From the IMG/VR virus record IMGVR_UViG_3300010885_003030, positions 1 to 36,068 of that record: 36,068 nt of DNA. One strand, 5' to 3'. Source of the DNA: a virus. Position 1 is the first letter of the stretch. Every line of letters starts with the position of its first letter. The position numbers and the translations under genes were made by a program. Positions 2-27,717 of the stretch are shown piece by piece. Under the pieces are notes generated by a model. It ran no database searches, was not told where the DNA came from, and saw only the letters and a list, made by a program, of their open reading frames with translations.

Positions 2-3000
2 TGGCAGCGTATTACAGGAACATTTACTACTGCTTCTAATACTGCTAACGTATCAGTATATCCAGTTTGGACTATCGCAAGTGGTTTTGGAACGACATAT
101 ATAGCATCACCGCAATTAGAAACTGGTTCAACTGCTACTACATACCAACCAAACTTTGATATATCACCTGCTGCGTTAGGATTAACAACTGCTCCTAATA
201 GAGCAATTAATTTCACTACTAATGTGCAAAAAAAAGTTGAGGTTATTAAGAATCCAACAAATAGAGATGGCACTTACTATATTGCTACAGGGCTAAGAAA
301 ACCAGTAGAAGTTATTAAGAATCCTACGCCACGTGAAAATGTTGTATATAATACATATCCTTTTAATTTTAGATTATCAAAATTACAAACACAGGTGTTC
401 AATACCGTATTATCGAGTAATTTACAGAAGCAATTAGCAGTAATTAAGAATCCAACACGCGATTCTATTGTTTGGAATACAACTAATCTTCAGAAAAAAC
501 TGGAAGTAATTAAGAATCCAACACCGCGTGATGATGTTGCTTATGACGTAAACTACCCTGTAAAATTTAAAACAATTGGAGTCAATCCAACTCCACGCGA
601 TGATATTGTATATAATACAAATAATCTACAGAAACAACTTCATATTATTAAGAATCCAACACGTAATGATGCTGTTGTTTGGGACGTAAACAATCTACAG
701 AAACAACTCCACGTAATTAAGAATCCAACGCCCAGGGATGATATTGCATATGATGTAATTACATACCCAACTAACTTCAGATTATCAAAATTACAAACAC
801 AGGTGTTCAATACCGTATTATCAAGTAATTTACAGAAGCAATCAGCAGTAATTAAGAATCCAACTACAAATGATGCTATTGTTTGGGACATAAACAATCT
901 ACAGAAACAACTTGAAGTAATTAAAAACCCAACACCGCGTGATGATGTTGCTTATGACGTAAATTATCCCATTAAATTTAAAACAATTGGAGTCAATCCA
1001 ACACCAAATGATGCTATTGTATATGATGTTAACAATTTACAGAAGCAATTTGAGATTGTTAAATTACCTGTAAAAATTGACAGCACGTATCGTCTAACAA
1101 ACTTTGATACAACATATTGGACCTATCTCAATAATAGTAATTTGATTGCGGTTGGAACAGCAAATCCAAAACTTATTAATTATACCCCAATATCAGCAAT
1201 ATCAACAAGTGGGTCAAATACTGTATTAACTATTTGGAATCCAAGTTCCAGTATTAATTATATGACTAGCGGACAGACTTATTATGGTGTGTTTAATGGT
1301 AGCGGACAGTATCTAAGCCTTTCATCTACTCCATTTCAATTTGGTACGGGTAATTTTACTGTCGAAGCATGGATATATCCTACTGCATATACATCGGGCG
1401 CTGGAGCTACTTCAATTGTTCATGATAACTGGGCAACGTCTCCTACATATACAGTCAATCAGTGGCAGTTTGGTCTTGGCAATGCAGGTCAAGCATATTT
1501 TGTCTATACCACTTCCACCTCAGCATATACAACAATAGGTGGCGGTACTGCTTCATTAAATCAATGGTCTCATATTGCCGCAGTAAGAAATGGTACAACA
1601 ATTACTGTTTATTTAAATGGTGTTTCTGTAGGATCTGGTACAAATTCCAATACAGTAGGTGTAGTAGGATCTGGAACAACTTCAATTGGTCAGCAAACAG
1701 GTGGTTCGCCCCGTTACTATTTTGCTGGATATATTTCTAATGTTCGCATGGTTAATGGCACCGCAGTATATACTGGTCCATTTACACCAATGGGTCCATT
1801 GACTACTAAACAAGTTGCCCGCACAAATGTTGTTGCGTTAAGTGGTACTGAGACTGCGTTACTGACCCTACAGAATAGCACGATATTAGATAATTCTATA
1901 TCGGTACCGCAACCAACTTATATTACTGGCACTACATATGGTGGTGGATTCAATGGTATCAATTATCTTTCTTATTCTCCAGGTAGTACTCTCACATTTG
2001 GTTCTAATAATTTTACAGTAGAAATGTGGATATATCCTACAGTTACTATACCATCTACAGCATATCTTTTTGATACTAGAGTAGGTGGTGGAGGTAGTTG
2101 GTGCTTTGGTTGGGGATTGGGAAGTTCTTTCGCAAGCTTACAATGGTATAACGGAGGAGTTATAGTTACTGATCCATCAGCCGCATCAACTTATTCACCT
2201 AATACTTGGTATCATGTGGCATATGTTAAAAATGGATCAACGGGGACACTTTATAGAAATGGTGTAGCTGTAGTTTCAGCACCAGATTCATCAACTTATA
2301 CTACTGCTTCAACAACTTCTACTATTGGTATATCTTCTGCAATATCGCAAGGGTTTACTGGCTACATCTCAAACCTCCGTATAGTTAAAGGCACAGCAGT
2401 TTATACTGGGGCATTTACTCCAAGTGGTCCGTTAGCCAATATAACAAATACGAGTCTATTAGCACTACAATCTAATAGTCCAACAGCCGATACAACCGGT
2501 CTCAATACTATCACCAACAATAACTCCAATGGACTAGTATTAGCTACATCATTCCCAGCTGGTAGTAACATAATATCTAATATTGGCTTAGTATCAATGA
2601 CAGTGAGTCAAGCATTAGGAACTGTTCCTGCTGTCAATGATTATATTCTTGTAACTGATACTATTACAGGAAATCAAGCATTGACTCCAATTGTTAGTGT
2701 TTCTAGTGCTGCGAGCAGTCCAGCAGGACAAGCAGTAGCAGTATATCCAAACGTAGTTATTGGCTCCAACTTAGTGAGCACTAGTAGCGGGGTCTTTACT
2801 TGGACTGCTCCTGCTGATGTTACCAAAGTTAGTGTTGTTGCCGTGGGTGGTAGCGGCGGCGCTGGAGCTGGTGGATATGGTGGTGGTGGCGGCGGTCTTG
2901 GATGGAAGAACAATATTACCGTAGTTCCAGGTCAAACATACTATGTGGCTGCCGGTGCTCCTGGCACCTTTGGCGGTCCAGAGTTTAATGCTGGAGTTAG

Positions 3001-6000
3001 CTATTTTAATAGTACTTCTACAGTAGCAGGATACGGCGGCGGCAATTGGGATAATTCTTTAGGTGGATCTTATTTTGGTGATGGCGGCGGCCAAGGCGGT
3101 GCTGGCGGCCGATCAAGTGGTTTAAATTTTGGTGGCGGTGGTGGCGCCGGCGGTTATAGTGGCACTGGTGGTGCTGGCGGGTCAGGTGTTGCAATTTCTG
3201 GATCTAATGGATCTGGTGGCGCTGGTGGTGGTGGCGGAACAGGTAATTTTGCCGCAGGATCAGGCGGCGGCGTTGGGTTACTAGGAACTGGATCTAGTGG
3301 TTTAGGAAGTTCGGGTGTTGCGAGTGGATCCGCAGCAGGCGCAGGCGCTGGCTCTGGTGGCTCTGGCGTTACTTACGGTGGCGGCGTTGGCGGCGGACAA
3401 GGAATTGGAGGTAATCCTGGCGCCGTAAGAATAATGTGGGGAAATTCTCGTGCTTATCCTTCTACTCTTGTAACAGATTTATCAACCGGCCCATTAATAA
3501 CTATTACAGTTGCAACAGCAGGTGTATCAAATCTAAATACTGCTAATACTTGGGCATATCAACTATGGGATCCTGAACTATTTTCTCAATCAAATCTATT
3601 AACAAATACAAGTCCACAGACTGCTCGTGAAAACTTATACTACGCTAGTTTAGTAAGTGGAAGATACGGTAGAAGGTTCCCATTTGAAACTCCCGCTGCG
3701 TTATCAAACAATGTAACAACAAGCAACCTTCAAAAAAGATTTGAAGTTGTTAAGACACCTGTTCAAGTTCCTAATAATTATAGACTTTCAGATTTTGATA
3801 GTTCTCTTTGGACTTACTTTAACAATACAAATAGAATTGCTGTTGGAAATGCCAATCCAAAATATTCCGGCATTAGTAATAATACCATTGGTTCATTGCC
3901 AACTGCAATAGGTTCTAATCTCTCAGTCATTGTTTATGGAACTTTTACTAATGTTATACCAACTACAAATGATCGACTATTATTAACTGATACCTCAACT
4001 CAAAATCAATCATTGGCTTCAGTAATAAGTTCAACAACCACTGGTTTCCCTGCTCAGGCATTGTTTGAAGGAAACGGTACTTCAACCGGTCCTGGTGTTA
4101 GCGGCAATGGTGTATTAACGGCTGGTTCAGGTGCAGCAGGCGGATATTATTCATTTACGTGGACTTGTCCTACAGGAGTCACATCAGTTTCAGTAGCGTG
4201 TATAGGCGCTGGTTCTAGCGGAGTTAACTCGAATGGTGCATTTGCCGCAGGTGGCGGTGGAGGCGCACTTGTTTATGGAACAGTTACCGTGGTTCCAGGC
4301 ACTGTTTACAATGTTCAAGTTGGTGTAGGTGGTACCAGTCCTGTATTTGCAGCAAGCAATTCCACTAACATGACCGCTGGCGGAGGAAGTTGGTTTAGTA
4401 CTTCGTCAACTTTGATTGCGGGCGGTGGATCAGCTAATATTGGTGGTATTTTCGGTGGGACTTACGCTACTGCAGGCGGTAATGGTGGTAATGGTGGCGC
4501 CGGCTATACTCTTGCTACTACTCAAGGAGGTGGTGGTGGTGGCGCAGGCGGTTATTCAGGCGCTGGTGGCAACGGCGGCAGTGGTAGTGTTACTGGAGGT
4601 ACAGGTGCTGCTGCTAATGCTGGTAGTGGCGGCGCCGGCGGTGGTAGCACAACCGCTGTTTCAGCTTTCAATTCTGGCGGCGGCGGCAGCGGCGTCGGTA
4701 TACATGGATTTACTGGTGTTACTGGTGCAGCAGGTAATGGTCAATTAAGCGGCGGAGCAGGCAGTGGCGGTACTCAAGGTACTCAAAGTACTGGATCTCC
4801 TTCTGCTCTTAGTGGAGCTGCTGGTGGTCTATATGGTGGTGGTGGCGGCGGACCTGGAACTAGTGCTACAGGCGTTTTAGCTGGAGCTGGCGGATACGGT
4901 GCTGTAAAAATTGTATGGCCAACAACTACCAGACTATATCCAAACACATCAGTTACTACAGCCACTGACACTACGTTTACCGGCGGCGCAAATATAATAA
5001 TTTCTTCATCCTCAGTTAGCAATTTAAGTTTAACTAATCTATGGAATATGAAAGCATGGGAAGCTGACATATTTCCTCAGGCAAACGTATCAATAAACAC
5101 AAGTCCAGTAACTGCTCGTGATAATTTATACTATGCTACACTAGCCAGAGGCAGATATGGACAAAGATTCCCATATCAAATGCCAACTGGCATTCCTGGT
5201 GCTGACTATAAATTTGATATAAACACTATTAACAAATTTAAACTGCCATCTATAAAGAATCAAACATTTGACGCTCCAGTCACTAGTAAACTTTCGTTCA
5301 TTGATAGTCAGTATTGGTCAGCTTATAATAACCCAAACAGTATTATTATTGGGCAAGTAAGTCCAAAAATTGCCACTTCAATTACATCCACTTCAACTTC
5401 AACTAGTGGATCAAACACAGTCATTAATTATATCAATTCTAATAATATTAGTCCAACAGTTGGGGATTATGTATTAATTACTGATACTAGTTCTTCCAAA
5501 CAAATACTTGCTCCAATTTCTGCTGTGAATAATAATCTTTATACTACTGCTTTGGGACAAGTGTTATTAACCAATGGAACAGCAACTGGCACAGGTGCTG
5601 CTTTTGTTAATACAACATCTAATCAAAATAATTATACTTGGGTTGCTCCCACTGGAGTCTTTAGTGTATCAGTTGTTGCTGTTGGTGCTGGTGGTGCTGG
5701 AGCTAATGCTCCTCCAGCAGGCGGCGGCGGTGCTCTTGCTTGGGCTAATAATATTCCTGTAACACCGGGGACAACTTATAACATAAAAACAGGGTTGAGT
5801 GGTCTTGATACAACAAGTGGAACAGCGAGCATATTTACAGCAGGCTCAGTTACTGTTACAGCAGGTGGTGGAACCGGCGGTACTCAGCAAACAACTACAG
5901 GTGGCGGTGGTGCAGGTGGCACTTGGTCAGTAACTGGATTAAGTGCTAGTCTATATGGTGGTGGTAATGGCGGTGCAGGCGGAAATGCACAAGGCTATAA

Positions 6001-6832
6001 CTTCGTAGGTGGTGGTGGCGGCGGCGCGGGCGGATATAATGGAAATGGTGGAACAGGGGCCAATCCATTTCCTGGTGCTCGTGCTGCTACTGCTGCTGCT
6101 GGCGGATCTGGAGGTGGTGGTGGCGGCGGCGCTAACATATCTAACGCAGACGGCAATAGTGGAAGTGGCGGTGGTGGTGTTGGCATATTAGGCACTGATG
6201 GTTCGCAAGGCGCTGCTGGATCTAGCGGTACTGGTGGATATGTCGGGCAATCTGGTGGTGGCGGTGGTGGTTCAGGCGGCGGTGGCGGTGCAGGCGAAGG
6301 TGGCGCAACTTATAGTGGTCCAGGTGGCAGTTATGGCGGTGGTGGTGCTGGTGATAACCTAGGTGATGGTGGTGCAAGTGGTGGCTTGGGTGCAGTAAGA
6401 ATCATCTGGCCCGCGGTAAGAAGAGCAGATGGCGTATCTGTTAGAGCATTTGGATCTTCAACAGCAACAACATTATTAGCAACTGATCAATCGAGCACTT
6501 TAGTAGAAAGTACAATCTCAATTCCAACTTCATATGTTGCTAATCTAGATCCTACTAAAACATGGACCGTACAGTTTTGGGATCCAGAAGTGATTCCTCA
6601 GTCAAATATCAGAACTATTATGCCTCCAACTAATGTGCGTGAGAATTTATATTATTCTACATTAATCCCAAATAGAATAGTAACACCTTATAGCAGAACT
6701 CAAACTCCTTATAACGAACCAATCTATGTTGATTCAAGAGGAATAATAACTAAGTATAGAACTGCGGCATTGGGTAAGGGTGTTATTGATGTTGCCTTCA
6801 AACCAGTAACACCGATACAATTCTGGAATTAA
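2..6832 (+). CDS. Giant modular tail-fibre/adhesin-like structural protein (5' end outside window)
   Basis: The frame is open from base 2, so the 5' end is outside the window and the GTG at 224 is probably internal. The first visible residues end in a QLETGSTATTYQPNF-type stretch, common at the edge of carbohydrate-binding domains of phage fibres. Next come about ten copies of a 20-25 residue repeat built on NLQKQLxVIKNPTPRDD (nt 224-1070). Two LamG/concanavalin-like domains follow (about 1270-1790 and 1920-2440), each with FTVExWIYPT and GYISNxR motifs. Three Gly-rich domains, each opening with a TWxxPxGVxxVSV strand and closing with AVxIxW, lie at about 2797-3435, 4144-4920 and 5627-6410. 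A TARENLYY-type motif follows each. I infer a host-binding or virion surface role. Glycine-rich stretches are low complexity, so homology there is weak evidence. Confidence 0.8.
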   Translation, partial: WQRITGTFTTASNTANVSVYPVWTIASGFGTTYIASPQLETGSTATTYQPNFDISPAALGLTTAPNRAINFTTNVQKKVEVIKNPTNRDGTYYIATGLRKPVEVIKNPTPRENVVYNTYPFNFRLSKLQTQVFNTVLSSNLQKQLAVIKNPTRDSIVWNTTNLQKKLEVIKNPTPRDDVAYDVNYPVKFKTIGVNPTPRDDIVYNTNNLQKQLHIIKNPTRNDAVVWDVNNLQKQLHVIKNPTPRDDIAYDVITYPTNFRLSKLQTQVFNTVLSSNLQKQSAVIKNPTTNDAIVWDINNLQKQLEVIKNPTPRDDVAYDVNYPIKFKTIGVNPTPNDAIVYDVNNLQKQFEIVKLPVKIDSTYRLTNFDTTYWTYLNNSNLIAVGTANPKLINYTPISAISTSGSNTVLTIWNPSSSINYMTSGQTYYGVFNGSGQYLSLSSTPFQFGTGNFTVEAWIYPTAYTSGAGATSIVHDNWATSPTYTVNQWQFGLGNAGQAYFVYTTSTSAYTTIGGGTASLNQWSHIAAVRNGTTITVYLNGVSVGSGTNSNTVGVVGSGTTSIGQQTGGSPRYYFAGYISNVRMVNGTAVYTGPFTPMGPLTTKQVARTNVVALSGTETALLTLQNSTILDNSISVPQPTYITGTTYGGGFNGINYLSYSPGSTLTFGSNNFTVEMWIYPTVTIPSTAYLFDTRVGGGGSWCFGWGLGSSFASLQWYNGGVIVTDPSAASTYSPNTWYHVAYVKNGSTGTLYRNGVAVVSAPDSSTYTTASTTSTIGISSAISQGFTGYISNLRIVKGTAVYTGAFTPSGPLANITNTSLLALQSNSPTADTTGLNTITNNNSNGLVLATSFPAGSNIISNIGLVSMTVSQALGTVPAVNDYILVTDTITGNQALTPIVSVSSAASSPAGQAVAVYPNVVIGSNLVSTSSGVFTWTAPADVTKVSVVAVGGSGGAGAGGYGGGGGGLGWKNNITVVPGQTYYVAAGAPGTFGGPEFNAGVSYFNSTSTVAGYGGGNWDNSLGGSYFGDGGGQGGAGGRSSGLNFGGGGGAGGYSGTGGAGGSGVAISGSNGSGGAGGGGGTGNFAAGSGGGVGLLGTGSSGLGSSGVASGSAAGAGAGSGGSGVTYGGGVGGGQGIGGNPGAVRIMWGNSRAYPSTLVTDLSTGPLITITVATAGVSNLNTANTWAYQLWDPELFSQSNLLTNTSPQTARENLYYASLVSGRYGRRFPFETPAALSNNVTTSNLQKRFEVVKTPVQVPNNYRLSDFDSSLWTYFNNTNRIAVGNANPKYSGISNNTIGSLPTAIGSNLSVIVYGTFTNVIPTTNDRLLLTDTSTQNQSLASVISSTTTGFPAQALFEGNGTSTGPGVSGNGVLTAGSGAAGGYYSFTWTCPTGVTSVSVACIGAGSSGVNSNGAFAAGGGGGALVYGTVTVVPGTVYNVQVGVGGTSPVFAASNSTNMTAGGGSWFSTSSTLIAGGGSANIGGIFGGTYATAGGNGGNGGAGYTLATTQGGGGGGAGGYSGAGGNGGSGSVTGGTGAAANAGSGGAGGGSTTAVSAFNSGGGGSGVGIHGFTGVTGAAGNGQLSGGAGSGGTQGTQSTGSPSALSGAAGGLYGGGGGGPGTSATGVLAGAGGYGAVKIVWPTTTRLYPNTSVTTATDTTFTGGANIIISSSSVSNLSLTNLWNMKAWEADIFPQANVSINTSPVTARDNLYYATLARGRYGQRFPYQMPTGIPGADYKFDINTINKFKLPSIKNQTFDAPVTSKLSFIDSQYWSAYNNPNSIIIGQVSPKIATSITSTSTSTSGSNTVINYINSNNISPTVGDYVLITDTSSSKQILAPISAVNNNLYTTALGQVLLTNGTATGTGAAFVNTTSNQNNYTWVAPTGVFSVSVVAVGAGGAGANAPPAGGGGALAWANNIPVTPGTTYNIKTGLSGLDTTSGTASIFTAGSVTVTAGGGTGGTQQTTTGGGGAGGTWSVTGLSASLYGGGNGGAGGNAQGYNFVGGGGGGAGGYNGNGGTGANPFPGARAATAAAGGSGGGGGGGANISNADGNSGSGGGGVGILGTDGSQGAAGSSGTGGYVGQSGGGGGGSGGGGGAGEGGATYSGPGGSYGGGGAGDNLGDGGASGGLGAVRIIWPAVRRADGVSVRAFGSSTATTLLATDQSSTLVESTISIPTSYVANLDPTKTWTVQFWDPEVIPQSNIRTIMPPTNVRENLYYSTLIPNRIVTPYSRTQTPYNEPIYVDSRGIITKYRTAALGKGVIDVAFKPVTPIQFWN
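371..456 (+). repeat. 86-bp direct repeat, copy 1
   Basis: This 86-bp stretch recurs at 779-864 with only two visible mismatches. It encodes the fibre segment LSKLQTQVFNTVLSSNLQKQ and the following VIKNPT. Similarity continues beyond the repeat (503 onward matches 914 onward, offset by one extra codon), so the duplicated block is more than 200 bp. Confidence 0.9.
779..864 (+). repeat. 86-bp direct repeat, copy 2
   Basis: Second copy of the repeat at 371-456, in the same reading frame, 408 bp downstream. The near identity at DNA level, including synonymous positions, suggests recent duplication or gene conversion within the fibre gene rather than selection on protein alone. Confidence 0.9.
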
Positions 6833-14112: not shown

Positions 14113-14940
14113 TTAAGCCAAACTGGCGTATAAATGGATCTGCAGGTTCAAAACAAACCCATTTTTGGCACAATATTGGGCTGCATACTCATGATTTATT
14201 TGGTTTTCCTTCATATCCAACAGTCCTTCTTCCCAGAAGCTGATGACCTCATCAACGGCACTGCGCTCTTCTAAAGTGATGCTATTCTTCTCGCTACGCA
14301 TCTGCTTGCTCTTCTGAGGTTCTCTGTTATAGATGTTCATTGGGCTGATGAATACCTTACGATCACCTCTTGCCCACTCTGGGATAGAACTATATGGGCT
14401 ATCCTGATCAGCATTCATGACGAACTTCAGACAATCAGCACGGGCAAGCATCTTGGGGTTGGGTTCTAGATATTTTACGGGCTTGCCATTCTTCTCTAGG
14501 CACTTGGGACTGACTACTAGTGTAGTTGAATCTGGAATGTTCTGTACGATAGTTCCGTTGCTTTCGATCTGTGTCCAAGCAAAGTGATCCTTGATATATT
14601 CAAGGAACATGCCAAGATTCTTCTGTAGCATTGGCTCACCACCAGTAATAACTAATCCAACCTTCTCACGGAACCATACAGGAACCTCTTCACCGAAGTA
14701 ATCTGCTACAGCCTTGAATATCCTTACTTCTAGTTCCTCAGGGGTTAGCCAGTCCCCTCCGTCGAAATAAGTATCACAGAAGCTACAGGCCAGATTACAC
14801 TTAGCAAGGCGAACGAATACTGCGGGTTCTCCACGATATGGTCCTTCTCCCTGTAGGGTATAGAATATGCTGGTGACAAACAACTTATCACCAGCAGCAT
14901 CGAAATATTTCTGTCCTACAATCTCGTTCTTACCAAACAT
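14113..14940 (-). CDS. queE: QueE, 7-carboxy-7-deazaguanine synthase
   Basis: Radical SAM enzyme that converts 6-carboxy-tetrahydropterin to 7-carboxy-7-deazaguanine (CDG). The cluster-binding cysteines are C48, C52 and C55 (CNLACSFC), the QueE-type approach FYTLQGEGPYRGEPAVFVRL is at 26-45, and GGEP is at 100-103. At 275 residues it is longer than many bacterial forms, with an insert around residues 150-180. It is the third enzyme of the set with QueD (15352) and FolE (16414) on the same strand. Its start codon is adjacent to the stop of the DNA glycosylase gene (shared boundary at 14940). Assignment is firm. Confidence 0.93.
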   Translation of the reverse strand: MFGKNEIVGQKYFDAAGDKLFVTSIFYTLQGEGPYRGEPAVFVRLAKCNLACSFCDTYFDGGDWLTPEELEVRIFKAVADYFGEEVPVWFREKVGLVITGGEPMLQKNLGMFLEYIKDHFAWTQIESNGTIVQNIPDSTTLVVSPKCLEKNGKPVKYLEPNPKMLARADCLKFVMNADQDSPYSSIPEWARGDRKVFISPMNIYNREPQKSKQMRSEKNSITLEERSAVDEVISFWEEGLLDMKENQINHEYAAQYCAKNGFVLNLQIHLYASLA

Positions 14941-18928: not shown

Positions 18929-19200
18929 GATCTTTCCTTATAATAGTTACTGGCCATCCAATGCATCAAGCAAATGAGTCCTTGACCTTCTTGTTTAAAT
19001 TTTACTGTAATCATACGATAATCTTTATACTCAGGATTAACAATAATAGCATAGTCCTCATACAACTTCAAATTTTCTCTCTGAAGCAATGCTTTCAGTC
19101 CTGTCAAGGTCGCATTGCGATTATGCCAACTTCCCGCTTTATGGCCTATCAATGGAAAGTCGATGGATTCCCAATTTTCGGTTAACCACAGTTCATTCAT
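18925..19200 (-). CDS. Hypothetical protein, 91 aa
   Basis: Begins MNELWLTENWESIDFPLIGHKAG and ends MHWMASNYYKERS. It appears to be a mixed alpha/beta cytoplasmic protein with no recognised motif. It overlaps the glycosyltransferase gene by 4 nt and the radical SAM gene above by 8 nt, placing it between two enzymes in one transcript. A sigma70-like promoter within the radical SAM gene (19238-19266) would give it a short leader with AGGAAA, so it can also be expressed separately. Confidence 0.65.
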   Translation of the reverse strand: MNELWLTENWESIDFPLIGHKAGSWHNRNATLTGLKALLQRENLKLYEDYAIIVNPEYKDYRMITVKFKQEGQGLICLMHWMASNYYKERS

Positions 19201-20449
19201 ATTTCCTAAACTCTTCTACTAGCCATGGGAAAAGTATAGTATAATCAGTCTTTCGTCTCTTGTCAAGTGTTTCTAGATAAAACTTTAATTTCGATATTTC
19301 TTTAGTATTTGGTTGAGTGTTTTCAATTTGTTTTCTAATGCCATTCATATATTTTTGTGCAGTACGTGCATGTTCTGTATTATCCAACATTAGAGATTCG
19401 ATGATATCAAAATCTTTATCAAATACCCCGGCACCAAAGATGTCAGGATTTAAAAAAGTGGGATCCTGTACTGTCATGAAGTTATTGTATATTGGCCTAA
19501 TGCTACTCCACTGTCTCATATTTGACAATAAGTCAGGCATTGTTTTGATACTGAGTCCACACATAGCATGGTTTACTTGTAGTCTGACCCATTTTAATTT
19601 GAGCAATTTTTCAAAATTTCTTTGCCACTGTGCTAGATTCAATCCTGATCTTACATATTCCTGTTGTGGACCCCAGCAATCTAGACTTGCAGTTACTTGT
19701 AATGCACTAAGTTTTCTCTTGCCAACTAACTTTGCAAATCTATCGATGAAATAGTCCATCTTTGTATCACCGATGCTTAAATTTGTAATGATGACAAATT
19801 CAAGATTGGGATTTGGATTCTCTTCGAAGAAATCCAGGCATTGTATAAATTCTTCCTGCATAAAAGGTTCTCCACCTAATATATGGAAACTTTTTACATT
19901 ATGATGATTTTCTTTAAGCCATTCAAACAATTTCACGACCATCTGATCATAATCTTTATTTAAATTGAATGTATGCATTATTTCAGAATGATTGTCTTTG
20001 TTAAAAATTTGGCCATGCTTAATATATTCAGATTCGATCTTACTACTAAACCATGGGCCGCAATAGATGCATTTTAGATTACATGTATTGTTAAAATAAA
20101 CTTCTAGCACAGTGGGAGTAACTTTGATCGCAGTGGGATCTGTCAGTAATTCGACTGGAGTAAGATTTTCATATTCTTCGGTCATATGCATTTGTCTATC
20201 ACTATAACCATTTGCATCTTCGATATTTCTACAATATTCACAGCCGCCGCCTGGCCAAGTTCCTTCAGCCATGAGTTTACGATCATTTAGTTTACGTGGC
20301 AGATTATGAAAGTCTTTGAATGTATCTAGTGTTAGCGTATCATGCTTAACACGATGACAACTAGCAGTGGTTGATTTACTTAGGTAGATAGTGCTCCATG
20401 CCCATTTTTGTCTACAGCCAGGAGATTTTTGAAAAGGAAAGTTACTCAC
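19193..20449 (-). CDS. Radical SAM protein of the twitch/SPASM type, 418 aa
   Basis: The SAM cluster motif CNLKCIYC uses C123, C127 and C130. A GGEP motif follows in FHILGGEPFMQEEF. Extra cysteines before the core (C12, C31, C70 and C73, in GGGCEYC) fit an auxiliary cluster of the twitch/SPASM kind, here placed N-terminal. I recall radical SAM proteins of this type, labelled as twitch domain-containing, in marine phages and uncultured bacteria, with no known substrate. SPASM/twitch relatives modify peptides or sugars. It lies in a run with a glycosyltransferase and an APS-kinase fusion. Class is firm, reaction unknown. Confidence 0.85.
   Translation of the reverse strand: MSNFPFQKSPGCRQKWAWSTIYLSKSTTASCHRVKHDTLTLDTFKDFHNLPRKLNDRKLMAEGTWPGGGCEYCRNIEDANGYSDRQMHMTEEYENLTPVELLTDPTAIKVTPTVLEVYFNNTCNLKCIYCGPWFSSKIESEYIKHGQIFNKDNHSEIMHTFNLNKDYDQMVVKLFEWLKENHHNVKSFHILGGEPFMQEEFIQCLDFFEENPNPNLEFVIITNLSIGDTKMDYFIDRFAKLVGKRKLSALQVTASLDCWGPQQEYVRSGLNLAQWQRNFEKLLKLKWVRLQVNHAMCGLSIKTMPDLLSNMRQWSSIRPIYNNFMTVQDPTFLNPDIFGAGVFDKDFDIIESLMLDNTEHARTAQKYMNGIRKQIENTQPNTKEISKLKFYLETLDKRRKTDYTILFPWLVEEFRKYE
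19238..19266 (-). promoter_or_regulatory. Internal sigma70-like promoter before the 91-aa gene
   Basis: Minus-strand TTGACA (19266-19261), a 17-bp spacer and TATACT (19243-19238), all inside the 3' end of the radical SAM gene. The leader of about 31 nt contains AGGAAA before the ATG at 19200. It would drive the glycosyltransferase and sulfotransferase-like genes. Confidence 0.75.
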
Positions 20450-22160: not shown

Positions 22161-22484
22161 TTAATTACGACCATTGTTTTGAGTCTCTTCGTATAGTTTA
22201 TAGTCTTCTGTATATGTGTCAAGTACTCTTTTGAGATTGACCACATCCTTGTGATCAGGGATTACATCATGCCATTCAACATCAGCACGACCAATTAGGA
22301 AATTAGCAGCCATCTTTAGCCGTTCCCAAAAATTGAGATGTCCTTTGTCGGATTGAAGCATGAAATAAAGTTCTGGTTCATCCTTTCCTACCCACTTATA
22401 ATAACTAACACGGATGAGATGCTCTGGGGCATGGCATTGACAGCCAATGTAGATTGTTTCGCTGTTGTCAGTATGTGTGCTCAT
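22161..22484 (-). CDS. Conserved phage hypothetical, 107 aa
   Basis: The core IYIGCQCHAPEHLIRVSYYKW followed by ELYFMLQSDKG and FWERLKMAANFLIGR is a pattern I recall from many unannotated phage proteins, in which a pair of Cys and a His near the N-terminus may bind metal. It is the first gene of a three-gene unit. The ATG lies exactly 6 nt below a TATATT -10 box, so the message may be leaderless. Confidence 0.7.
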   Translation of the reverse strand: MSTHTDNSETIYIGCQCHAPEHLIRVSYYKWVGKDEPELYFMLQSDKGHLNFWERLKMAANFLIGRADVEWHDVIPDHKDVVNLKRVLDTYTEDYKLYEETQNNGRN

Positions 22485-22490
22485 AGTGTT

Positions 22491-22519
22491 AATATACTAT
22501 GAGCACACTGGTTTGTCAA
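22491..22519 (-). promoter_or_regulatory. Sigma70-like promoter, leaderless configuration (107-aa gene)
   Basis: Minus-strand TTGACA (22519-22514), a 17-bp spacer and TATATT (22496-22491), then exactly 6 nt to the ATG at 22484. The -35 abuts the stop codon of the 942-aa outer-membrane protein gene. Confidence 0.8.
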
Positions 22520-25348
22520 TTAGAAATCTACCTTAAGACCAATAGTTCCAACTGCGGCCGTATAGTCCTTGCCCTTGTCGAAACCAACAGTGGCATTTAA
22601 GAATATGCCCTTGTCAATTTCAGTCTTGGCAACTAGTTTGATACCACCAACTGTTTTAAAATCCTTAGTCTGAGTGACCTTAGTTTCGAAACTGATGTTG
22701 TTGTCTAGATCATACTTTACACCAATGTATGGATTAACACTAGTAGATGATTTAACAGGGATAGTTGATAGCAATGAACTTCCCATTTCAACTACATTGT
22801 TAATCTGACTTTGATTTACAGTAACACCAATCAATGGACGGAAGCCATAATAAGTGTCTGCTGTATATAAAGTGATATCAGCATAGTATGTCTGCTGTTT
22901 GAACTTGGCGCTGTTGTATAAAGCAAATAGTGGGATTGAAGTTGTACCAGTATAACTGCTATTACCAGCACCTACTGAAGCCTTAATCCAAAAATCTTCC
23001 TGCTTGCTTAGAATATAACCAGTCACATTGTAATCAGTGACATCAACTGTTGCGCCAGTTAGACCGCTACTCTTTCCAGCAACATATGCGCCAGCAATGC
23101 CAAATGAATTGTTTTCAACAGTCCATTGATAACCTGCTGTTAGCCCACCTTTTGACATATTGCCCGCAGTCTTATAATATCCTGCTGTTGGGTCTGCCCA
23201 AGCACCATCCTTTTGATTCAATGCATCAACCAGGAACGGATTAGTATTCTTTACTTTTACAGCATCACTAAATCCAGTAGCACTAACACCTTTAACAACA
23301 TTATTACTTGTCTGTGTATAAGTGTCATTATTAACAGCACTGCTGACATTTTGATAGATTGTGTTACTGACATTTACTGGTGTTCCAGTGGTCACACTGG
23401 TAGTTGCACCATTCGCATCTTTATTTGTTGTAGTTGGAGTATGAGTAGTTACAGTAGTAATAGGTGTTGTGACCACTGTGGTTGTAGTTGATGGGTGATC
23501 AGTAATAACTGTAGTATTTTGATTGATGTTTAACATCTTACCTACTAGATTTTTAGTATAGGTAATGATCGAATTACTGCTAGTTGCCCAATTTACAGTG
23601 CTGCTAGAAGCAGTAGCAATTCCGCTTGTTGTATTAGTTGTAACAACATCTTTTGTTGTGGCAACATTCTGTATAGCAGGTTGTGTTATATTGGCAGTTA
23701 CCGTATTAGAAGTTGCCGAAGTTACGACTGGCGTACCATTTGCTGTTGTAGTAGTTCCATTACTGTAAGTTGTAACAGTAACAGGCGTAGTTGTAGTTGT
23801 AACTGTGTTTGGAGTAGTTGTAGTTGTAGTAACTGTGAAATAAGTTGTTACTACAGGATTACCGTTTGCGTCAACACTATTAACCAGACTAGTATTCTTC
23901 ACTGAAGTTACAGTCGGTGTTCCAACTGCATTACTTGATGTTACGATCGGTGTTCCGGGAGCAGTACTCACTACTGTTGGAGCAGCAGGAGCAGTGGCAT
24001 TATTAGGAGCAGTGCTACCAGCATTAGGAGCAATAGCACCAAATGGTGTAGTAAAGTTAAGTGTTGTACCTACATCTTTAGTAACAAAAAGTATTGGGCT
24101 ATTTGTTGTATCACCTTGATTGAATACCGCAAAGCCCAATGTATAAGTTCCGTCAGCATTGGCAGTGTAGTTTGCCAATTGCCAACCCGTTGCACCATAA
24201 CTGCCAGTTGAATAGTTACCTGTCCCTGGGCTTGTAAATCCAAGTAGTGCATATTCTTTATTGGCGCCATTAACAGTAGCAACCGTAGTGCCTGACTTAT
24301 TGACAAGAGAAGTCATGCTTCCATCATTGAATGGAACATAGTCAGTCGATACATACTGCCAAGCCATATGGAAGGTCTGACCATTTGTAAGTGTGATATC
24401 TTGTTTAATCCAAGCGGCATTAGTAGCAGCACCACCAGCGGCACTGATAGCAGCAGCCAATTCTGTCTTACTAGCAGCACTTAAGCCTAAAGAAGCAGCC
24501 ATTGCATCGAATGTATTGATATTAGCACCACTAGTTACTGTGCTATTAGTAGGCTGTAGACTAGCCATATATGTTCCAACTGGAGGAGTAACTGTCCAGC
24601 TATAACTGTTAGGGACACCGGGACCTTGTCCCTGTGTATTGAATCCAGTCATTCCACTGACAACACTTACACCAACACCTTGGTTAGCATTGTAAGTTCC
24701 GCTTGATTGTGTGCCTGTGCCGCCACCAGCAGTCCATGGTCCCAAGGTTCCTGTAGCAAAATCAGTATTGGTAGTTGAACTTGTAATGTTGGGAGCAGTT
24801 GGGGTTACGGGTGTTGGAGTAACAGTTACAGCCTGCCCTGCTGCTAATGGTGTAGTTGAACCACCCGCTGCTAATGTATTAACCTGTGCCAATGATGGAT
24901 TTAATGTTCCAGTCCAAGATACACCACTGGTGTTAGCGAACCCACTGGTCATGCTAAACAATTGTCCAGTATTATTATCATTGCCAACAAAGAAAAAATA
25001 GTCAGTGCCCATATTAATAATATGGCCAGTACCCATTACTACTTTTTGTACCCCCGCAGAATTATATTGTATAGCATTGTAGGGATTAGTGGCATTACCA
25101 GTTGCTGAAAATTTAACATAATCCCCCGCAGCCCATGTTAACTGTCCAGTAGTGAACGGTATCTTATAGACTGTTCCTGGGTTTTTGCTATAGATTTGAC
25201 AAGTGGTTGTATTCATACAGGCATTTACGTTCCATTGGCTATCTGCTATCTGTGCTTGGCCAAATTTTAGATCCGTAAAATCTGCATATGCTGATGTTGA
25301 AAATAAGCCAGCAAGGATTGCGGCTGTTTGAATGATCTTTTTAATCAC
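22520..25348 (-). CDS. Secreted outer-membrane protein with C-terminal beta-barrel (autotransporter-like), 942 aa
   Basis: Residues 1-22 are a Sec signal peptide (KKIIQTAAILAGLFSTSAYA, cleaved before D). A beta-rich passenger follows; residues about 195-440 resemble a jelly-roll domain of the kind seen in bacterial surface proteins (FATGTLGPWTAGG, later HMAWQYVSTDYVPFNDGS). Residues about 470-690 are a Thr/Val-rich linker. The last 260 residues have alternating aromatic strands (GLTAGYQW, FWIKASVGAG, YYADITLY) and end in KVDF, the terminal Phe that BAM recognises. The start is GTG, with GGAG 7 nt upstream. A phage-coded barrel could alter host surface or block superinfection. Passenger function unknown. 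Confidence 0.8.
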   Translation of the reverse strand: MIKKIIQTAAILAGLFSTSAYADFTDLKFGQAQIADSQWNVNACMNTTTCQIYSKNPGTVYKIPFTTGQLTWAAGDYVKFSATGNATNPYNAIQYNSAGVQKVVMGTGHIINMGTDYFFFVGNDNNTGQLFSMTSGFANTSGVSWTGTLNPSLAQVNTLAAGGSTTPLAAGQAVTVTPTPVTPTAPNITSSTTNTDFATGTLGPWTAGGGTGTQSSGTYNANQGVGVSVVSGMTGFNTQGQGPGVPNSYSWTVTPPVGTYMASLQPTNSTVTSGANINTFDAMAASLGLSAASKTELAAAISAAGGAATNAAWIKQDITLTNGQTFHMAWQYVSTDYVPFNDGSMTSLVNKSGTTVATVNGANKEYALLGFTSPGTGNYSTGSYGATGWQLANYTANADGTYTLGFAVFNQGDTTNSPILFVTKDVGTTLNFTTPFGAIAPNAGSTAPNNATAPAAPTVVSTAPGTPIVTSSNAVGTPTVTSVKNTSLVNSVDANGNPVVTTYFTVTTTTTTPNTVTTTTTPVTVTTYSNGTTTTANGTPVVTSATSNTVTANITQPAIQNVATTKDVVTTNTTSGIATASSSTVNWATSSNSIITYTKNLVGKMLNINQNTTVITDHPSTTTTVVTTPITTVTTHTPTTTNKDANGATTSVTTGTPVNVSNTIYQNVSSAVNNDTYTQTSNNVVKGVSATGFSDAVKVKNTNPFLVDALNQKDGAWADPTAGYYKTAGNMSKGGLTAGYQWTVENNSFGIAGAYVAGKSSGLTGATVDVTDYNVTGYILSKQEDFWIKASVGAGNSSYTGTTSIPLFALYNSAKFKQQTYYADITLYTADTYYGFRPLIGVTVNQSQINNVVEMGSSLLSTIPVKSSTSVNPYIGVKYDLDNNISFETKVTQTKDFKTVGGIKLVAKTEIDKGIFLNATVGFDKGKDYTAAVGTIGLKVDF

Positions 25349-25410
25349 AATATTTCTCCAAATGGATTAGATTCGTCGAAATACCATGATTAATTGAAAA
25401 ATCTACTGTA

Positions 25411-25935
25411 TTATTTATCTACAGTTTGATCTTTGGTGTACTGATCCCAATACGTATACTTGTCCTTATCCATTAGATCATGTAACTGATGTGTCCAAAC
25501 ACCTGGATTAGTCTTGCCCCAAGTTAGGTCATCGATCTTCAATGTGGTATTATAGTTGAACTGTTTGATATATGGCAGTTTAACACTGAGCATTGGGACA
25601 AAACGATCATGCTCGCATAATCCAGATTCAATCAATCCTTCTGCTTGCTTAACATCGAGATCCAAGGTGCACCAAAAATCTTCATCTAAACATGCCTTAA
25701 TCACATTTGCCCAGTTGTTCCATTCATCAGCATCGTTTACGCCGATATCAGGAAAGCTCTGGCTAGTGCCAAAATAGATATGTTCTACTTGGTATTGCCT
25801 GGCCTGTGATAGGATCTCTGCTACAGGGGGAGTGCCCACAACAAATAATGTAAACTTATCATAGCAAATAGTATGTTCTACTTCGAATCCGGTAAAATAA
25901 GTCACTGCCTGTCGTTCTTCTGTATTCAAGGCCAT
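25411..25935 (-). CDS. Conserved phage hypothetical, 174 aa
   Basis: Starts MALNTEERQAVTYFTGFEVEHT and has VEHIYFGTSQSFPDIG, then a helical region and an aromatic C-terminus. I recall proteins opening with this YFTGFEVE pattern in marine phages, usually next to a zinc-type alcohol dehydrogenase and an oxidoreductase, as here. It overlaps the dehydrogenase gene by 10 nt. No catalytic motif is visible. A role in the same pathway as its neighbours is inferred from context. Confidence 0.7.
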   Translation of the reverse strand: MALNTEERQAVTYFTGFEVEHTICYDKFTLFVVGTPPVAEILSQARQYQVEHIYFGTSQSFPDIGVNDADEWNNWANVIKACLDEDFWCTLDLDVKQAEGLIESGLCEHDRFVPMLSVKLPYIKQFNYNTTLKIDDLTWGKTNPGVWTHQLHDLMDKDKYTYWDQYTKDQTVDK

Positions 25936-26840
25936 ACCAAGTATCCTCTGCTGTATCCTGCTGGGCGATTAACGCCATCTTCAAATGCTTGTTGCCATTC
26001 TGTATTACGATTATAACCCCTAGTCCATAGCCCGTCAACTTTCATACCACAGTTCTGAATGTATGACACAGCCATGGTCATTGCAGTGTAGAATTCAGGA
26101 TTTCGTGGGCTTGGACATTTTATTGTACAATTCTTCCAAAGAAGATTGGCAAATGAAGTAGTCACAGCAGGATGTTTCTCTGCTGCTAATACGATAACGG
26201 CATTATCCTTCAGAACATCTTTAGTGAATACTGTATCATCCTGCTTGAGATCAATTACAACATCATACTGACCTGTAGGTTGATTAGCAAGTTCAATGTG
26301 ATCCTGCCAAAGATGACGATTGCTATTGCCAACTACAGTAATGGCACCATCATAAGAATGTATTAGCATAGTTTGAAACACGATCCAAGATAAGAAACCT
26401 GAACCCAGTATTAGCAAACGCTTGTTGTCAGTGTTATAAGTTGGAAACCCCTCTTCTGCAACATTGATGCCGCAAGCAATGGGTTCAATGATCCATTTGG
26501 GATCAAGTTCTGGAACAACTACAAAATCATATCTTCCAACATTATAATAATCGCTATATGCCGGCTCTCCGCGTGTTGCTACAAAGTCACCCACTGTTAC
26601 TAGTTCTAATCCGGGCCTATTAACATTCTTACCAACCTTAGTAACAATGCCTAAGCCTTCGTGTCCTTGCATATGTATGGGCAATGGACTAAAATTGCCC
26701 TGCATCATATCAATATCGCTACGACAGATACCAGTCATTGCAGCCTTTACTTCAATTTGATCCTCTGTAGGTTCAGGTTTATCCCAAACTGTTTCAACAA
26801 ACTTACCATCACCTGCTGTATAAAGAATCCTACTTCTCAT
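25926..26840 (-). CDS. Zinc-type alcohol dehydrogenase-like (MDR) protein, 304 aa
   Basis: I chose the ATG at 26840 over a TTG at 26852. The catalytic zinc site is visible: C39 in GICRSD, H60-E61 in MQGHEGLG, and C in EPIACG. The four-Cys structural zinc lobe is missing, which explains the short length (304 against about 350 usual). A Rossmann glycine motif lies in LLILGSGFLSW. MDR enzymes oxidise alcohols or sugars, or reduce carbonyls, with NAD(P). It overlaps the Gfo/Idh/MocA gene above by 11 nt, so the two are probably coupled, perhaps as consecutive steps in cyclitol or sugar metabolism. Confidence 0.82.
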   Translation of the reverse strand: MRSRILYTAGDGKFVETVWDKPEPTEDQIEVKAAMTGICRSDIDMMQGNFSPLPIHMQGHEGLGIVTKVGKNVNRPGLELVTVGDFVATRGEPAYSDYYNVGRYDFVVVPELDPKWIIEPIACGINVAEEGFPTYNTDNKRLLILGSGFLSWIVFQTMLIHSYDGAITVVGNSNRHLWQDHIELANQPTGQYDVVIDLKQDDTVFTKDVLKDNAVIVLAAEKHPAVTTSFANLLWKNCTIKCPSPRNPEFYTAMTMAVSYIQNCGMKVDGLWTRGYNRNTEWQQAFEDGVNRPAGYSRGYLVWP

Positions 26841-27717
26841 CGTATGGTCCAATCATATTGTGTATCCACAGATCTTGTGCAAGTTGATCTTGCCACCAAA
26901 TCTCATTAGTAAAATTGTCAAAAGCAGTTTCAATCATTGTCTTATATGCTGAAACTGGGCACAGCCCCAGTTCGAAACGACGCTCTCGATCACCATAAAA
27001 AATAATTGCTTGATCATCTTGTTCTAAACTACGCCAGTTAGCAGTTAGATTATAATGTACTTTACCAACAATTAATTCGAGCCTTGCATAATCGTCTACA
27101 TCATATAATCCATCTAGATTAATCGAACCATATGCTGTGCCTGAGAGATCGTTCAATTGCCATCTTTGTTCTTTTTCAAATTTTAAAAAATTACAATCTT
27201 GATATGTAGTTGGGTGTATTGCTGCAACCCAACTTAATAAGTGTGGCATTAGATCTCTACTAACTCCGCCAAAACTTAAATGACTACTAGTAAACCAACT
27301 ACCTGGGTTAGGCACACGATTATAGTTAATCCAGTTAATGTTTACTGTATCACTGACATTAGCAATTGCTTTGAAGAATGGCAATTCTTCGCGATATTGG
27401 TTATTCTTTACCATGATAAATTTAGTATCAGGATAGGAATCGACCATGATTTGCCAATCATGAGCAGTGCGAACACCTGGCTTTTCAACAAACACTATCT
27501 TGCTATGTTCTGCAACAAAATAAGCAAGATTTTCATGTGTATGATTTGGAGTACAGATGAACGTAGCATCGAATCTAGGATGAACATCCAATGCAAGTCC
27601 TACGCTTTTAAAATCAGCAGGACGAGTATTATCCACTGTTACAACTTCATGTCCTAAATCGCGGAGAACTTCTCTATAAAGTTCTCCGATTCCCATTCCA
27701 ATAATTAAACTCTTCAT
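26830..27717 (-). CDS. Gfo/Idh/MocA-family oxidoreductase, 295 aa
   Basis: The N-terminal Rossmann fold opens with SLIIGMGIGELYREVL. The family EKP motif is at 78-80 (FVEKPG). The C-terminal domain has GGVSRDLMPH at 150-159, placing D155 and H159 where the catalytic pair of the family is expected. Members use NAD(P) on sugars, inositols or sugar nucleotides. It sits 3 nt below the dpdA-like gene and overlaps the zinc-type dehydrogenase, so it shares a transcript with both. Substrate unknown. Confidence 0.85.
   Translation of the reverse strand: MKSLIIGMGIGELYREVLRDLGHEVVTVDNTRPADFKSVGLALDVHPRFDATFICTPNHTHENLAYFVAEHSKIVFVEKPGVRTAHDWQIMVDSYPDTKFIMVKNNQYREELPFFKAIANVSDTVNINWINYNRVPNPGSWFTSSHLSFGGVSRDLMPHLLSWVAAIHPTTYQDCNFLKFEKEQRWQLNDLSGTAYGSINLDGLYDVDDYARLELIVGKVHYNLTANWRSLEQDDQAIIFYGDRERRFELGLCPVSAYKTMIETAFDNFTNEIWWQDQLAQDLWIHNMIGPYDEK

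Follow-up and report, generated by a model that had tools for sequence, protein, structure and literature searches.

The stretch of DNA analysed here, a record of 36,068 nt from a freshwater virus of bacteria, referred to below as the window, is probably a fragment of a jumbo phage of the T4 superfamily, judging from the relatives of its family B DNA polymerase, which was closest to those of Sinorhizobium phage Phosso and Agrobacterium phage Atu_ph07 and then to those of GAP32/CBB-type phages. The minus strand of the window encodes a predicted autotransporter-type adhesin, and the features of the locus are as follows.

25412..25419 (-), GATAAATA, a motif of the late-promoter type (NATAAATA), which overlaps the upstream ORF's stop codon and marks the left edge of the mobile cassette
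25356..25359 (-), GGAG ribosome-binding site, 7 bases 5' of the GTG, read from the sequence
22520..25348 (-), gene of the autotransporter-type adhesin (942 aa), starting with GTG
25283..25348 (-), signal peptide of Sec type (residues 1-22), cleavage after AYA and before D, assigned by inspection
24824..25279 (-), N-terminal head module NMOD, residues 24-175 (QIADSQWNVNACMNTTTCQIYS)
24014..24793 (-), middle head module MID, residues 186-445, tentatively of a jelly-roll or carbohydrate-binding-like fold (best Z 7.0, weak)
23279..23968 (-), Thr-rich stalk, residues 461-690, with the motif TPVTVTTYSNGTTTTANGTP common to the family
22523..23284 (-), pore helix and C-terminal translocator barrel, residues 689-942, Phe last
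22491..22519 (-), sigma-70-type promoter of the next ORF (22161-22484), TTGACA-17-TATATT; right edge of the mobile cassette

The signal peptide has a KK n-region and a hydrophobic core peaking at +2.1, and a signal-like segment starts every full-length relative listed. Cysteines 44 and 50 of NMOD are the only two in the whole adhesin, and threonine makes up 31% of residues 461-690 compared to 18% of the entire protein. Searches of the window protein against Pfam, PHROGs and NCBIfam yielded no usable match, and no match was found among cultured phages. Its relatives in many phage contigs, the conservation of its modules and low dN/dS values (0.04 in MID and 0.06-0.10 in the barrel), which indicate strong purifying selection, together argue that the gene is more than a chance reading frame. 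Directly upstream of it, an alcohol-dehydrogenase-like and a Gfo/Idh/MocA-like ORF (25926-27717) are suggestive of sugar metabolism. Elsewhere the window encodes a QueE-like radical SAM protein (14113-14940) and a second radical SAM protein (19193-20449), possibly genes for deazaguanine DNA modification, as well as an ORF of 2276 aa that is cut by the window edge (2-6832; matches to phrog_4474/3545) with three tandem repeats of ~204 bp near its start (364-963).

The C-terminal part was modelled with AlphaFold from a 28-row alignment as a pore helix (692-702) and a barrel of the 12-strand type, in which 11 strands were assigned in addition to a low-confidence first strand (barrel pLDDT about 80). 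When compared to solved structures, its 16 best matches were without exception autotransporter domains, led for residues 689-942 by NalP (Z 23.4, rmsd 3.0 Å, 252 residues aligned) and including EstA (Z 21.7) and AIDA-I (Z 19.8), then EspP, Hbp, AaaA and BrkA, and the matches included the pore-helix region. In the Pfam search the window protein stayed below the curated cut-off of PF03797, which was passed by the phage relatives L008 (E 4e-9), L101 (7e-10), L105 (1e-14) and L106 (2e-7); against a profile of such PF03797-positive phage barrels, the window barrel scored a probability of 97.4 (E 1.1e-11). The model thus indicates that the C-terminus is a genuine autotransporter barrel, and the barrel is ultimately bacterial in type. 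A NalP-like protease or EstA-like esterase passenger was rejected, as there was no match to a catalytic family. The initial annotation had described a signal peptide, a Thr-rich passenger and a barrel ending in Phe, all of which are borne out here, and its reading of the product as a bacterial-type outer-membrane surface protein in a phage is supported by the modelled structure and by the PF03797-positive phage relatives. It had also pointed to structure prediction and autotransporter family membership; the fold agreed, while membership by the PF03797 cut-off held for the four relatives and not for the window protein itself.

The passenger has a different set of relatives. When viral contigs were searched for NMOD, at least 87 relatives emerged, nearly all with curlin-type repeats instead of a barrel, and PF07012 scored above its cut-off in three of these (L035, L048 and L073). 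The window protein itself lacks curlin repeats, having no PF07012 match and no QxGxxN repeat. Its head shares 52% identity over 450 aa (E 1e-113) with L048, a curlin-repeat protein of a phage curli operon. L048, L052 and L073 each consist of a signal peptide, NMOD, MID and a curlin-type C-terminus, and are encoded within curli operons; the window protein consists of a signal peptide, NMOD, MID, stalk and barrel. For 13 of 14 phage barrel proteins the head was also found on a curlin-type protein, and at least four head types were common to both anchors: NMOD with MID, NMOD with F5/8C (barrel proteins L007 and L008; curlin-context genes L022 and L034), the L006/L085 type and the L101/L010 type. 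The barrel protein at L103 (3810-5801), located in the fibre slot of a curli operon, has a head unlike all others and unmatched among curlin-type heads. Among predicted viral structures, the head model of the window protein had two strong matches, one named 'Autotransporter beta-domain containing protein' and the other 'Curlin associated'.

Fold searches with MID gave weak matches of jelly-roll, CBM and MAM type (Z up to 7.0), tailspike domains being among the jelly-roll matches. As the head fold matches are weak (Z ≤7), no ligand is claimed, and binding to sugars or cells would be a guess. The tentatively carbohydrate-binding-like fold of MID, and the galactose-binding-like F5/8C heads of L007, L008, L099 and L105, would suit a protein that captures nutrients or surface polysaccharides, or that forms a coat against grazing, to the infected cell's advantage in a long infection. 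We consider such a role improbable, as neither an enzyme domain nor an uptake partner was seen and, apart from the translocator, nothing points to a transport channel.

The genes surrounding the headed curlin genes were found to form operons whose members match CsgF, CsgG, Curlin_rpt, FecR and a CHASE2-adenylate cyclase. In large freshwater phages the order is CsgF-CsgG-curlin-FecR-[head protein]-cyclase, identical to that of the published type VIII secretion operon of pelagiphages (PMC9599517), and the head protein stands where that operon has its second curli repeat fibre. CsgG was detected in 52 of the records searched for it, and complete operons of this type (CsgF, CsgG, curlin, FecR, headed second fibre and CHASE2-cyclase) were seen at about 50 distinct large freshwater phage loci, for example L022, L024, L048, L069, L070, L077 and L097. 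The cited literature on phage curli operons covers marine pelagiphages and one methylophage only (PMC7029224, PMC9599517, PMC9004378).

Gene context separated the two protein types. Among 70 protein clusters at 95% identity, considering neighbours within 5.5 kb and genes with enough flank, CsgG and FecR lay nearby in 54/54 curlin-type (barrel-free) genes but in only 3/13 barrel genes (Fisher p = 1e-9). The three linked barrel genes (L103, L105 and L106) sit in the operon's fibre slot directly after FecR, with the cyclase on the other side where the contig extends that far, an arrangement that is what an intermediate state would look like. In the barrel tree, stand-alone and operon-borne barrels formed no clean clades, a result that fits either one swap or several. 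A 367-kb record (G006) has a barrel gene but lacks both CsgG and curlin, four others (G013, G018, G019 and G020; 280-357 kb) have a headed curlin operon and no barrel gene, and two (G003 and G010) have both a barrel gene and a curli operon, the second fibre of which is short and headless (176 and 86 aa). The head-bearing protein was thus never found on both anchors in these seven large records, which is a pattern rather than a rule as the records are not certified complete. The window record gave no CsgG and no FecR-profile match; as it is a 36-kb genome fragment, a curli operon may lie elsewhere in the genome, and two relatives carry both systems. The occurrence of the same heads on both protein types, and the tracking of CsgG and FecR with the curlin type, strongly suggest that phages exchange the anchor beneath one adhesive head, using either an amyloid repeat with CsgG or a self-exporting barrel; with the amyloid repeat replaced by such a barrel, the phage would no longer need CsgG. 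The domain structure, sharing of heads, anchor swap, operon context and cassette mobility (see below) are all backed by the sequences and predictions.

The sequence ATAAATA, which is the late-promoter core of T4 and cyanophages (PMC2984593), precedes the adhesin gene and others of its kind. It was found 66-145 bases upstream in 8 of the 12 barrel genes that stand alone (2000 shuffles gave a mean of 0.9 and never more than 4), a count that overstates independence as the window, L001 and L002 are close relatives among the eight, and upstream of just 1/32 other window genes. The motif suggests that the promoter would be used late in infection. Compared to L001 and L002, the flanks in the window are collinear (75-82% identity), but the adhesin gene lies at a different place. 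The DNA block common to all three runs from the promoter motif (25418) to the stop codon (22518), and the NMOD segment (25247-24806) has no match to L001/L002 at the DNA level. Since the common block spans promoter to stop but not NMOD, the promoter and gene moved together and the head module was exchanged, which makes the stand-alone adhesin gene a mobile promoter-plus-gene cassette. At the other edge, a similar TTGACA-type site precedes the same next gene in L001/L002. A palindrome with 15-bp arms (22475-22508) encloses the -10 box and start codon of that ORF in the window and is missing at the L001/L002 junction; it was rejected as a terminator of the adhesin gene for want of a T-run on the gene's strand.

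The late-type promoter and the beta-rich head with its weak jelly-roll matches, tailspike domains included, might fit a fibre or spike of the particle. We nevertheless regard this as very improbable: the protein has a signal peptide and a translocator barrel with pore helix, homologous heads are found in CsgG-linked secretion operons, and no tail genes adjoin it.

The initial annotation had further placed the gene within a phage transcription block, flanked by a terminator/promoter pair, and had suggested its capture from a host on the grounds of codon and repeat style. The late-type promoter core upstream supports a transcription unit of the gene's own, and of the pair the promoter-like site (22519-22491) stands while the terminator does not. 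The codon use of the adhesin gene is 0.099 from the window average, inside the range of 19 other window genes (0.076-0.219), and is thus not foreign. Among the bacterial genomes scanned, NMOD was found in a single Microbacteriaceae metagenome-assembled genome (1/299 members of the family, 1/296 of the phylum). This sole bacterial case (L111, 5911-6624) is a distant relative on a secreted protein that is encoded among housekeeping genes (threonine dehydratase-, UppS- and PhoH-like). For MID, a remote relative was seen in a protein encoded on a Novosphingobium plasmid, the annotation of which is autotransporter-associated. That the gene was captured recently from a host was rejected as the simplest account, as codon use is like that of the neighbours, NMOD is found at at least 87 viral loci and in one bacterial genome, and the nearest relatives of the head are fibre proteins of phage curli operons. 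The earlier account is partly supported, its observations being sound and its interpretation half right.

We consider it fairly probable that the protein is a phage type V adhesin, a curli head on a self-exporting barrel that sticks infected cells to their neighbours or to surfaces. In the mechanism that we infer, the host would make the adhesin late in infection from the phage's own promoter, Sec would export it, and the BAM machinery would insert the C-terminal barrel into the outer membrane, so that the Thr-rich stalk and two-domain head would be displayed on the infected cell. That cell could then stick to neighbouring cells or surfaces, similar to the 'sibling capture' proposed for phage curli, and benefit the phage thereby. 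A wider proposal, which we hold tentatively as an open possibility, is that head modules are traded between the amyloid curli fibre (type VIII) and the autotransporter (type V), and that the swap released the adhesin from the curli operon and gave rise to a mobile late cassette holding bystander host cells near the bursting cell.

The protein could instead cover or replace receptors so that other phages cannot adsorb. Exclusion of phages by phage-encoded outer-membrane proteins is established, as for the Lom/porin-type genes of lambdoid phages, and the surface could be screened by a long stalk that bears a bulky head. Defence against superinfection is moreover among the functions proposed for phage curli (PMC9599517). 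Against this, an early shield would not need a late-type promoter, and heads that are exchanged between lineages and common to fibre proteins look like an exchange of binding specificity rather than receptor mimicry. We therefore judge exclusion or receptor masking unlikely, and adhesion or aggregation is better founded than either owing to the head's origin in phage curli operons.

The role of phage curli genes is debated, a fibre, a pore, a lysis timer and sibling capture having all been put forward. Sibling capture, defence against superinfection and import are the proposals of the curli papers (PMC7029224, PMC9599517). Phage Melnitz, which carries curli pore genes, showed no clumping in culture, and a lysis role was proposed for its pore (PMC9004378). 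The barrel version is pore-free, which makes it harder to explain the head-bearing gene by a pore alone. Curli-type and curli-free phages have the adhesive head rather than the pore in common, which argues that the displayed cargo, and not the CsgG pore, is under selection. What is new here is that one phage-owned adhesive head is exchanged between type VIII and type V export; no description of the autotransporter version was found in the open-access papers searched. These phages thus seem to provide the cells they infect with an adhesin that leaves by one or the other of two export routes, recombining an identifiable set of head modules between two secretion types, and the single-gene, self-exporting version provides a form of the curli-head adhesin that can be expressed and tested.

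Among known systems, the curli operons of pelagiphages and methylophages (HTVC008M, HTVC023P-type, Melnitz; PMC7029224, PMC9599517, PMC9004378) encode CsgF-CsgG-curlin-FecR-second curlin-repeat protein-adenylate cyclase, and it is on the second curlin-type protein of the corresponding freshwater large-phage operons that the window's head is found. The window protein differs in having an autotransporter barrel in place of the amyloid repeat, and its gene stands alone behind a late-type promoter with no CsgG nearby. With type Va autotransporters (PF03797; NalP, EstA, AIDA-I) it shares the signal peptide, passenger, pore helix, translocator barrel and terminal Phe, but it is encoded by a lytic-type phage and has, in place of a beta-helix passenger, the head of a phage curli fibre carried by a Thr-rich stalk. 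The Lom/Ail-type proteins of lambdoid prophages are likewise phage-encoded outer-membrane barrels made in the host, as proposed here, but are small 8-strand barrels with no secreted passenger, from prophages rather than a large lytic-type phage. Two autotransporter-annotated proteins of the cultured freshwater Synechococcus phages DSL-LC03 (WJZ47857.1) and DSL-LC02 (WJZ48311.1) have barrels homologous to that of L105 (E 1e-17 and 2e-15, respectively); these phages belong to the Kyanoviridae and the N-terminal heads are unrelated to that of the window protein, while the genes carry the same stalk motif (TPVTVTTYSNGTTTTANGTP) and likewise have ATAAATA upstream.
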